A stretch of DNA of 59,634 nucleotides, taken from assembly GCF_015521605.1 (NCBI RefSeq), contig NZ_WANV01000039.1, positions 1 to 59,634 on the forward strand. Reading direction: 5' to 3'. Shown here one piece after another: positions 31,402-54,862 of the stretch. A model generated the notes under the pieces. That model was not told the origin of the DNA, did no database searches, and was given only the letters and a program-made list of their open reading frames with translations. A program made the translations under genes and the position numbers. Source of the DNA: Thermococcus sp. (GTDB taxonomy: Archaea > Methanobacteriota_B > Thermococci > Thermococcales > Thermococcaceae). Numbering within the stretch: the stretch's first letter is position 1; each line of letters begins with the position of its first letter.

Positions 31402-32490
31402 CTACTTAAAACACGCCTCCAGTATCGGGTCGGGAATCACGTAGTAAACGTTCCTCCCCTCGATTCTTCTCTCAAGGAAAGAGGAATCAACCAGCCCCTT
31501 AAGGAGCCTCGCCAGAACGCTGTCTGCTATGCTCTTGCCTTCCTTTTTCTCCAGATGCCCCTTTATCTCCTCCCAGGTTCTCTTTCCTCCTGCCACCGCC
31601 CGCATTATCTCCATGTATCTTCCCCTTGCAACTTGTCTTTTTTCCAGAAAATTCTCGAACTCGCTCATCGCGAGCGCCTTTGCTTCCTCAAAGACCTCAC
31701 CTATGAGTCCCTCGGAGGGGCCCTTCTCCATCGCCTTCTTCCCAAAGAGGACGAGCCAGCCGACTATGCCGTCAAGCCTTTCAACTGCCTCCTCGATGAG
31801 CTTTTCCTGTGGGTTTATACCCACCTGTTCGAACCCCTTCAACAGGAAATCCCAGCTCTGCTCAGGGGTAAAACGGGATAGGCTTACCTCATGAAAGTAT
31901 CGCCCGTAAAGGGGGGCGCTGGGGTCATCAACGCCTAAGTAGTCATGGAGCAGGCCCACTTCGGAACCCGTCATAACCATTCTCAGCTCGGAGTAGTCGT
32001 AGAGGTGGGCTATCAAACCCGCGAACTCGCTCCCGACAGGCCCTCTTAGATACTGAACCTCATCGAAGGCCAGGACGACGTTGTGCTTCTCCAGCTCCCG
32101 GAAGAGGGCTATTAGGTCGGTCTTCCCCTCCTTCCATGAAAAGCTCACGCCGAAGCCGAGCAGCCGAAGACCGGAGATGTTTTTAAGGTCCCCCTTGACA
32201 TCTTCCCAGATTCCGCGGTTCTCGCGGAAGAAGGCGTTGACGGCGCCCTCTATCCTCTTGTAGACGTCCATACGGGAGTTCGGGTTGACTCCCCTGAAGT
32301 CGACGATGACGTGGGGAAGCTCAAGCTCGTTGAGGCCGACGAGAAGGAGTGAGGTCTTTCCGAGCCTCCTTATACCGGTGATGACCGTTAGTGGGTTTCC
32401 GGACTTTAGGGAGTTCTCAAACTCGCCCAGTTCACCTTCTCTGTCATACAAATCCTCCCGCTTTCTCTTCGGACGGGTGTCGAAGTACAC
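31402..32490 (-). CDS. Archaeal ATPase (Arch_ATPase/STAND-like) with C-terminal winged helix, copy 1
   Basis: A 362-residue P-loop ATPase. The N-terminal RPKRKREDLYDREGELGEF leads to Walker A GIRRLGKTS (39-47); Walker B is VVLAFDEVQYLRG (Asp143-Glu144), and a sensor-like MVMTGSEVGLLHDYLG follows with the PLYGR block. The C-terminal ~80 residues look like a winged helix. Such proteins form lineage-specific expansions in Thermococcales with unknown role. GTG 32490 is chosen because GGTGGT lies 4 nt upstream and the N-terminus then aligns with copy 2 at 53753 (MYFDTRPK versus MLFDLQPK). A perfect 22-bp palindrome abuts the start, and the promoter stretch is identical to copy 2. Confidence 0.88.
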   Translation of the reverse strand: MYFDTRPKRKREDLYDREGELGEFENSLKSGNPLTVITGIRRLGKTSLLLVGLNELELPHVIVDFRGVNPNSRMDVYKRIEGAVNAFFRENRGIWEDVKGDLKNISGLRLLGFGVSFSWKEGKTDLIALFRELEKHNVVLAFDEVQYLRGPVGSEFAGLIAHLYDYSELRMVMTGSEVGLLHDYLGVDDPSAPLYGRYFHEVSLSRFTPEQSWDFLLKGFEQVGINPQEKLIEEAVERLDGIVGWLVLFGKKAMEKGPSEGLIGEVFEEAKALAMSEFENFLEKRQVARGRYMEIMRAVAGGKRTWEEIKGHLEKKEGKSIADSVLARLLKGLVDSSFLERRIEGRNVYYVIPDPILEACFK

Positions 32491-32520
32491 AACTACCACC
32501 CCAGTAGTTAACTACTGGGG
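32491..32520 (-). promoter_or_regulatory. Perfect 22-bp palindrome plus third half-site at the ATPase copy 1 start
   Basis: On the gene's strand, CCCCAGTAGTT (32520-32510) is followed by its exact inverse AACTACTGGGG (32509-32499), then TGGTAGTT (32498-32491), which supplies the ribosome binding site and a third half-site inverse to AACTAC, then GTG. The array lies between the TATA box and the start codon, covering the expected transcription start, the place of an autoregulatory operator. Confidence 0.7.
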
Positions 32521-32523
32521 CAG

Positions 32524-32539
32524 AAGTTATAAGGGTTTC
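32524..32539. promoter_or_regulatory. Promoter stretch shared with ATPase copy 2; possible divergent promoter
   Basis: On the minus strand this reads GAAACCCTTATAACTT, identical over 16 nt to 53705-53720 upstream of the second ATPase. TTATAA serves as TATA box for the ATPase. Read on the plus strand, AAGTTATAAGG lies about 25 nt before the first C/D box RNA, so it could drive both. Confidence 0.55.
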
Positions 32540-32554
32540 CTCGTTAATAATTCA

Positions 32555-32612
32555 CGGCGATGACGAGCCCTGGAGTGGCTGACCCGTGATGACGGGCATA
32601 CTGGCCGAGCCG
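32555..32612 (+). ncRNA. Probable C/D box small guide RNA 1
   Basis: A C box (CGATGA, 32558-32563), a 15-nt guide, D' CTGA (32579-32582), a 4-nt spacer, C' TGATGA (32587-32592), a 12-nt guide and a variant D box CCGA (32605-32608) occur in order and at the standard spacing of archaeal C/D RNAs. The ends CGGC and GCCG can form the terminal stem. Such RNAs guide 2'-O-methylation of rRNA or tRNA by fibrillarin, Nop5 and L7Ae. Targets were not determined. The D box deviates from CTGA, which lowers certainty. Confidence 0.65.
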
Positions 32613-32646: not shown

Positions 32647-32721
32647 GAGCGATGACGACCTCTAGGGTATCTGAGACCGCGCCCTGCGCGGCAAAAATGA
32701 TGAGGGTCAGAGACTGAGCTC
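32647..32721 (+). ncRNA. Probable C/D box small guide RNA 2
   Basis: C box GATGA (32651-32655, preceded by GC), a 15-nt guide, D' CTGA (32671-32674), C' TGATGA (32698-32703), a 10-nt guide and D CTGA (32714-32717), closed by GAGC and GCTC ends. The 23-nt spacer between D' and C' is longer than usual and contains its own hairpin (CCGCG with CGCGG). A CTTTTAAC TATA-like box lies about 25 nt upstream. Its last bases overlap the end of the gene on the other strand. Confidence 0.65.
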
Positions 32722-53704: not shown

Positions 53705-53720
53705 GAAACCCTTATAACTT
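53705..53720 (+). promoter_or_regulatory. Promoter of ATPase copy 2, identical to that of copy 1
   Basis: GAAACCCTTATAACTT is identical over 16 nt to the minus-strand sequence at 32539-32524 in front of the other ATPase. CTTATAA is the TATA box; the palindromic array begins at its downstream edge. Confidence 0.6.
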
Positions 53721-53754
53721 ACCCCGGGGTAAGTAACTTACGGTGGGGTAAGTT
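53717..53754 (+). repeat. 38-bp palindromic repeat, 5' copy, at the ATPase copy 2 start
   Basis: The element contains four half-sites: ACTTACCCC and its exact inverse GGGGTAAGT (a perfect 18-bp palindrome, 53717-53734), then AACTTAC and GTAAGTT as an inverted pair with a GGTGGG spacer (53735-53754). The spacer supplies the ribosome binding site and the final TT is the first two bases of the TTG start codon. A second copy, 31 of 38 positions identical in the same orientation, lies at the gene's other end. Confidence 0.8.
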
Positions 53755-54862
53755 GCTGTTTGATCTACAACCTAAGACAAGGCGTGAGGATTTGTACGAC
53801 AGGGAGGCAGAGCTCCAAGAGTTCAGAGATGCCCTAAACCTGGGTGAGAGGCTCATTCTCTTGCTCGGATTGAGACGTCTGGGGAAGAGTTCACTGCTCA
53901 ACGTTTCCCTGAATGAATCCGGGATGCCTTACGCAAAGATTGACGTCCGCTCTCTGTACTTCACCCATGGCTCCATACCTCAGGAGATCCTGGCCAAAAA
54001 ACTTCTGGACTCACTTCTCTCGACGGTCTCGTCCCGCAGGGCCATTAGACTGAGACTGGAAAAAGCGCTTGAATCTGTGAGGGGAATAAGACTTTCGGGC
54101 CTTCACGTTGAGTTTGAGAGAAAACCGGATTTGGCAGAAATTCTTGAGAGGATAAACTCCTGGGCCGAAAAGGAAGGCCTAAGGGTTATAATCGCCTTCG
54201 ACGAAGCCCAGTACCTCAGGCTCTCGGGAATCCAGTACGATGGCCTCATAGCGTATGCGGTTGACAACCTTCCGGCCCTGACCTTTGCACTGACCGGCTC
54301 GGAGGTTGGAATGCTCTACGACTTTCTGGGGCTGGAAAATCCGAAAAAACCCCTCTTTGGGAGGTATGCACGGGAGATTACACTCAACAGGTTCAGTCGG
54401 GAGCAGAGTGTGGACTTTTTAAGCAAAGGCTTTGAGGAGATTAGAGTTGAAGTCCACAAGGGTGAACTCGAAAGGGTCGTCGACAGACTTGATGGAATAA
54501 CCGGCTGGCTGACAACCTACGGCTACCTGAGAGGAGTGAGGGGACTCTCCGAGAGGGACGCCCTTGAAGAGCTGTTTCAGCGGGCCCAAGCACTGGTCAT
54601 GGAGGAGCTATCATCCCTTCTCTCCTACAGCAGGAGGTACGGGCTGATACTCAAGGCGGTCGCCCTTGGAAATGAGAGCTGGAGCGACATAAAGGAGTAC
54701 TTGGAATTCAAAGGAGGGCGAATAAACGATGCAAAGTTCTCCCTCCTATTGAAGAACCTCACAAAGTACGGCTATTTGACAAAGACCGGAAGGAGTTACG
54801 CAATACCCGATCCCGTTGTCCAAGAGGTGGTCAGGAAGCTCAGCTTACCCCAGGGTAAGTAA
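53753..54862 (+). CDS. Archaeal ATPase (Arch_ATPase/STAND-like) with C-terminal winged helix, copy 2
   Basis: A 369-residue homologue of the ATPase at 31402-32490. Walker A GLRRLGKSS is at 39-47, Walker B VIIAFDEAQYLR (Asp150-Glu151), and FALTGSEVGMLYDFLG with PLFGRYAREITLNRF matches copy 1. The C-terminal region (GLILKAVALGNESWSDIKEYLEFKGGRINDAKFSLLLKNLTKYGYLTKTGRSYAIPDP) is a winged helix suited to DNA binding. The start is TTG 53753 after GGTGGGG. Both its start and its stop (TAA 54860-54862) lie inside 38-bp palindromic repeats. It follows the McrBC-like pair by 62 bp. Its role is unknown. Confidence 0.88.
   Translation: MLFDLQPKTRREDLYDREAELQEFRDALNLGERLILLLGLRRLGKSSLLNVSLNESGMPYAKIDVRSLYFTHGSIPQEILAKKLLDSLLSTVSSRRAIRLRLEKALESVRGIRLSGLHVEFERKPDLAEILERINSWAEKEGLRVIIAFDEAQYLRLSGIQYDGLIAYAVDNLPALTFALTGSEVGMLYDFLGLENPKKPLFGRYAREITLNRFSREQSVDFLSKGFEEIRVEVHKGELERVVDRLDGITGWLTTYGYLRGVRGLSERDALEELFQRAQALVMEELSSLLSYSRRYGLILKAVALGNESWSDIKEYLEFKGGRINDAKFSLLLKNLTKYGYLTKTGRSYAIPDPVVQEVVRKLSLPQGK

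Follow-up and report, generated by a model that had tools for sequence, protein, structure and literature searches.

Archaeal ATPase_2/STAND-like proteins are represented among solved structures by SSO1545 (PDB 2FNA) and P. abyssi PABY2304 (PDB 2QEN), and for neither did the open-access literature that I searched, which did not cover the SSO1545 structure paper, give a DNA target, an operator or a specificity code. Here I discuss a member of the same family encoded in a 59,634-nt stretch of Thermococcus sp. DNA (the window, meaning the whole stretch analysed), whose structural model gives a TM score of 0.86 against 2FNA and 0.81 against 2QEN and so has the fold of the solved ATPase_2 members; 2QEN also matches another protein of the home genome, that of clade B on contig C33, at 560 bits. 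The next best solved folds are those of Cdc6/Orc1 (1FNN and 2QBY), among them Cdc6/Orc1 bound to origin DNA, and STAND proteins are matched as well, but with a whole-protein TM to Cdc6/Orc1 of only 0.47-0.48, against 0.81-0.86 within its own family, the protein cannot be counted among the Cdc6/Orc1 initiators.

Like Cdc6/Orc1 and DnaA, the ATPase family combines an AAA+-type ATPase with a C-terminal DNA-binding domain. Cdc6/Orc1 and DnaA also have repeated sites near their own genes. Unlike in these, the short half-site sequences of the ATPase family (the words) vary by paralogue and sit at the start codon, and there is no sign of an origin function, as far as this can be judged without origin mapping. 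The LacI and TetR families, antitoxins and the C proteins of restriction-modification systems have private autoregulatory operators and show co-evolution of helix and operator; the ATPase family resembles them in its working only, the regulator type (a P-loop ATPase) being unrelated. It differs from them in its usually fixed frame of four half-sites with an embedded Shine-Dalgarno sequence, and in being a single gene with no recognised effector partner and apparently no regulon. A toxin-antitoxin partner did not emerge either, the flanks differing between clades and flank clustering giving no common neighbour, although neighbours were not systematically annotated. IniR, the mycobacterial STAND-like regulator of iniBAC, has an ATPase domain predicted to be SSO1545-like and a C-terminal DNA-binding domain (PMC5760070); compared with the ATPase family it is larger, has a MalT-like sensor domain and controls another operon.

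The window genes, their sites and their paralogues

The features of the window on which the argument rests are the following.

31402..32490, minus strand: short-class ATPase gene of clade C, 362 aa, with an ATPase_2 P-loop domain and a C-terminal winged helix (Pfam and AF2)
31486..31524, minus strand: recognition helix H3, residues 323-335, starting with the specificity residue Asp323 (AF2 secondary structure; covariation peak)
32491..32497, minus strand: half-site H4, GGTAGTT, abutting the start codon (sequence)
32499..32520, unstranded: perfect 22-bp palindrome with arms CCCCAGTAGTT and AACTACTGGGG, comprising half-sites H2 and H3' flanked on the outside by C/G runs (sequence)
32522..32528, minus strand: half-site H1', AACTTCT (sequence; four-half-site architecture)
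32524..32539, minus strand: BRE/TATA region GAAACCCTTATAACTT (three exact genomic copies, all at paralogues), its final 5 bases part of the first half-site
53716..53753, unstranded: clade A operator with the word GTAAGT, arranged AACTTAC..GTAAGT A ACTTAC..GTAAGT
53753..54862, plus strand: second window paralogue, clade A, 369 aa
54844..54879, unstranded: clade A operator in its 3' copy, which overlaps the stop codon and has a convergent gene facing it

Membership of the clade C protein in ATPase_2 is shown by PF01637 (E=2e-17, 64.1 bits against a curated cut-off of 33.2); PF21100 (MCM_C wHTH) is matched at E=4e-12, the AF2 model has a pLDDT of 93.7, and R41, G44, K45, D143 and E144 are invariant across 54 proteins. 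On the minus strand the gene is preceded, in order, by GAAACCCTTATAACTT (32539-32524), CTG, CCCCAGTAGTTAACTACTGGGG (32520-32499) and TGGTAGTT (32498-32491), and family alignment favours the GTG at 32490 as start codon over the in-frame GTG at 32499. By chance, a perfect 22-bp palindrome would fall within about 60 bp of any particular start with a probability near 1e-5 (60/4^11). Across the 2.03-Mb genome the 16-mer GAAACCCTTATAACTT occurs exactly three times, each time upstream of a paralogue in the ATPase family, and the exact clade C core AGTAGTTAACTACT occurs once, as it does in each of the 20 of 94 family genomes that have it.

The preliminary description had claimed that the 16-nt stretch is identical to one in front of the second paralogue and that a perfect 22-bp palindrome follows it, and both claims held (the second copy lies at 53705-53720 on the plus strand, the palindrome at 32520-32499). 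It also placed a third half-site by the start codon, doubling as ribosome binding site: the half-site is there, and GGGGTGG (32502-32496), which overlaps H4, can by its sequence serve as a Shine-Dalgarno, but the count failed, since the last five bases of the 16-mer, AACTT, begin the overlooked half-site AACTTCT and the site thus has four half-sites, not three. For the same reason its contrast of a conserved promoter with a diverged palindrome is only partly right, part of the supposed promoter being operator. Divergent from the ATPase promoter lies a C/D box sRNA at 32556-32610 on the plus strand (Rfam sR51, 39.3 bits, above the gathering score), apparently followed by a second C/D-like sequence near 32650-32720.

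The home genome holds six short-class ATPase_2/winged-helix genes (349-369 aa), all with PF01637 and all six with a palindrome, perfect or nearly so, that lies between the TATA box and the start codon; the MCM_C-like winged helix was found in both of the short-class proteins tested for it. Their inner words, AGTAGT at the 31402..32490 gene, GTAAGT at 53753 and on C33, and CCATGT, CCATAC and CGAAAC, all stand in a C-run/G-run context. The core word GTAAGTWACTTAC is common to clade A (window 53753) and clade B (contig C33) despite their different helices, and these two clades are found together in at least 13 genomes. In the eight longer ATPase_2 paralogues of the home genome the short-class layout is absent, though some have weaker palindromes: among the long-class loci noted (L005 and L017), L005 has a start-proximal dyad ATGATAAT..ATTAT G ATAAT..ATTATCAT, and other long-class ATPase_2 genes have a common GTATTATAC-like motif before the start.

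For the words tested, occurrences in the home genome are essentially confined to their own family genes; GTAAGTNACTTAC, allowing up to one mismatch, is found nowhere in it but at the two ends, 5' and 3', of two paralogues. No regulon elsewhere in the home genome was found for these words, bar one-mismatch sites of clades C and J1. The clade C site is a one-mismatch core, ATTAGTTAACTACT, at G000:C30:28862-28875 (L169, near 2000), between a TATA-like sequence and a Shine-Dalgarno of a putative secreted-protein gene; about 0.3 matches of one-mismatch quality are expected by chance for this word, and the site could be either chance or a second target. The E-type word has a single home-genome copy, next to the J2 gene, as the mark of an E locus that has been lost, and cross-addressing as the meaning of E-type words 3' of J2 genes is ruled out, such words being neighbouring solo E loci.

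Conserved layout, second ends and solo sites

The family is present in 83 of 94 Thermococcaceae genomes, from which 135 genes in some 12 clades were fetched (the best-scoring matches only, not all matches in the 94 genomes), and among these no clade occurs twice in one genome save for a divergent clade E copy. The usual layout is one of four half-sites (inverted word, G-run, word, twice over) at a spacing of about 19-20 bp and ending at the start codon, and across the 135 Thermococcaceae genes and relatives in many archaeal phyla the word differs from clade to clade while this layout is kept. In the 23 members of clade C the 46 bp upstream of the start have a mean identity of 95%, whereas the figure is 34% in the 50 bp beyond them and 51% at third codon positions; taking clades A and C together, operators are 95% identical where third codon positions reach 48-51% and adjacent DNA 31-34%. 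A scan of GTDB gave 80 loci, including Sulfolobales, Desulfurococcales, Thermoproteales, Hadesarchaea, Bathyarchaeota, Brockarchaeota and Thermoplasmata, nearly all with the same layout and other words, such as ACTTCTGGGGCAGAAGTATACTTCTGGGGCAGAAGTTG in Metallosphaera; with a Sulfolobus protein as the query no loci were matched. Scored for four half-sites, 208 upstream regions averaged 22.0 out of 24 against 17.1 in shuffles, and 161 of the 208 reached at least 21, as against 0 of 624 shuffles. A clear four-half-site array is lacking in clades E, I, J1, J2 and K, where there is one palindrome.

The GTDB scan also matched contigs labelled Thermotogae, which are possibly misbinned. Contigs labelled Thermotogae or Caldiserica carry the family members L198, which at 84% identity to the window protein is probably misbinned, and L220, L221, L225, L226 and L231, most of which have in common the word TTGAGT and the helix (T/S)DQTL. 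The clade F operator of L140 has three tandem 20-bp units (cgatacttagtatcggggg) and is iteron-like.

New here are second copies at the 3' end in several clades and precise gene losses that leave one palindrome. In clades A, B, D and E a further copy of the word often lies at the stop codon, and the two 3' copies of the home genome both face a convergent gene. At about 27 solo sites, with A/B and E words, relatives have the ATPase gene where only the palindrome stands, and the best cases have flanks that can be aligned with occupied loci on both sides as far as the palindrome itself (L163 against L079, with 92.7% over 496 bp and 91.1% over 495 bp; likewise L156 against L096 and L179 against L001), so that one palindrome joins the upstream flank, usually including the TATA box, to the downstream flank. 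Solo operators between orthologous flanks are L150-L159, L161 and L163 for the E word and L173-L181 and L183-L188 for the A/B word; decayed scars will have been missed, because solo sites were found by exact core pattern. Many relatives have lost the gene precisely and kept one palindrome, which recombination between the two copies explains, with protein-assisted excision not excluded.

Several further loci bear on the fate of these genes. L160, L162, L167, L168, L171, L172, L182 and L189 are frameshifted or decayed-looking short-class genes beside intact operators. L166 (G027:C1:49779-53792) is a solo clade C operator, inverted with respect to the upstream flank, in a genome without a short-class ATPase at E<=1e-25. 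In G025 (L178 with L114) a clade B locus has been tandemly duplicated along with the divergent membrane-protein gene next to it; one of the two ATPase copies has been lost to a solo palindrome and the other is intact. This cannot be read as a clean jump, the neighbour having been duplicated together with the ATPase.

Covariation of the word with recognition helix H3

That palindromes should covary with the C-terminal winged helix, or else the idea of a paralogue-specific address code fails, had been set beforehand as a refutation test; it was run and passed. At clade level, with hand-set clade definitions and words, a partial Mantel test gave r=0.55 (p=1e-4) for word and helix given the NBD, and r=0.03 (p=0.40) for word and NBD given the helix. 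With words and helix windows parsed automatically, at the price of a few errors, an unguided scan of 118 protein windows placed the best at residues 322-331, at the recognition helix (H3 = 323-335 by AF2). Of all pairings of a protein column with a word position in 50 clusters (70% identity), the strongest linked residue 323 to the second base from the dyad (z=13.5): Asp or Glu goes with G in 24 of 25 clusters, Asn with C in 13/13 and Lys with A or C in 5/5. Put as a two-way table, acidic residues have G in 24 clusters and another base in 1, and non-acidic residues have G in 1 and another base in 24 (Fisher p=1e-11), a p-value that overstates independence because the clusters are related; the apparent exception for an acidic residue 323, L223, is a misparsed automatic word. 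Phylogenetically disjoint G/C pairs, of which there are only 7, agree with the residue 323 rule in all cases, and residues 322, 324 and 325 associate with word positions 4-6.

Natural experiments point the same way. Clades J1 and I have 84% of the NBD but only 29% of helix positions in common, and their words differ, while clade I resembles J2 in helix as well as word; within clade C, L074 departs from its relatives in both, with Ser322 and the word AGAAGT in place of their Ala322 (Val in one) and AGTAGT. A self-regulating regulator should have specificity residues that track its own operator word, and by the H3 covariation, in the absence of binding data, the winged helix does. The address code is therefore supported to the same extent, though not strictly as one word per paralogue, because clades A and B have a single core word between them and yet different helices, and some crosstalk is to be expected on that account. 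I consider it likely, on covariation and without binding data, that H3 recognises the word by a partly readable code.

Probable private autoregulation and its rivals

What is shown is the architecture, its conservation, how rare the words are in the home genome and their covariation with H3; from these, I find it likely that each short-class ATPase is a private, self-targeting autoregulator, probably an autorepressor, whose operator has co-evolved with H3, while binding, repression and nucleotide control remain inferences. The C-terminal winged helix would bind the array of usually four half-sites, from the TATA box over the transcription start region to the start codon, and the AAA+/STAND-like ATPase domain, to judge from its fold, would probably give cooperative, nucleotide-dependent assembly on it. 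Helix H3 would read the word, residue 323 the second base from the dyad (Asp323 would contact the opposite C, and Lys323 a G, which is chemically sensible) and residues 322, 324 and 325 more distal bases. After duplication, helix and word would change jointly, and the circuits of paralogues would therefore stay apart. The TATA box starts about 43 nt before the start codon (about -43) and Thermococcus transcription starts 20-30 nt downstream of TATA (PMC5316973), so the array spans TATA to start codon with the expected start site inside the palindrome, and protein bound there should obstruct TBP/TFB or RNA polymerase; the G-run spacer can also serve as a Shine-Dalgarno. Against this reading stand the one core word with different helices in clades A and B, the single palindrome rather than a clear array in clades E, I, J1, J2 and K, and the 3' copies of clades A, B, D and E, which autorepression alone fails to explain because they are not at promoters.

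The palindrome might instead be an RNA hairpin sequestering the G-rich Shine-Dalgarno, which in clades C, E, J and K does lie in the right arm opposite a C-run. I regard this as very unlikely and reject it on the expected position of the start site, which falls inside the palindrome and should leave the left arm untranscribed, and on word covariation with helix H3, which a hairpin does not predict; moreover, dyad spacers are only 0-2 bp, and in most clades the G-run is unpaired, a spacer between direct and inverted word repeats. Positive or bistable autoregulation, in which nucleotide-dependent assembly on the array as a platform would activate or license the gene, or else a divergent neighbour, draws support from the iterated 19-20-bp arrays, the Cdc6/STAND-like fold and the clade B genes that adjoin a divergent membrane-protein gene, the pair having been duplicated together. 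It seems improbable, since in almost all clades the array overlaps both the TATA box and the start region. Such a position is typical of repression.

A further rival is a palindrome-bracketed mobile or selfish cassette, in which the protein acts on the words at both ends and so promotes the exact excision or insertion of its own gene; the empty site would then be what is seen as a solo palindrome. Frequent 5' and 3' copies in clades A, B, D and E, the roughly 27 solo A/B and E sites that match occupied loci of relatives, and the inverted clade C solo in G027 all speak for it. I nevertheless doubt it: Pfam finds only ATPase and wHTH domains and no nuclease, transposase or recombinase domain, most loci are syntenic within clades, solo sites mostly retain the TATA box, as expected of loss, and recombination between direct repeats of 15-27 bp would leave the same scars. 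Relatives are also absent from the viral contigs, plasmids and phages searched, on which ground a plasmid or virus origin of the family is rejected. A bolder reading, to which I give little weight, makes these genes ancient self-addressed cassettes whose private word is both autoregulatory operator and site of precise removal, perhaps of insertion, with word and helix co-evolving through a readable code.

Under the preferred reading of private autoregulation, a family that is common in hyperthermophilic archaea (as its presence across the Thermococcaceae attests) and has two solved structures, yet no described target that I could find, gains a predicted binding site for nearly every member and a residue-level code that can be tested. 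Its many naturally occurring protein-word pairs form a large panel in which to study the insulation of paralogous regulators and the evolution of winged-helix specificity, and it is a possible source of orthogonal, heat-stable regulators, while its solo sites point to an unexplained mode of precise gene loss.
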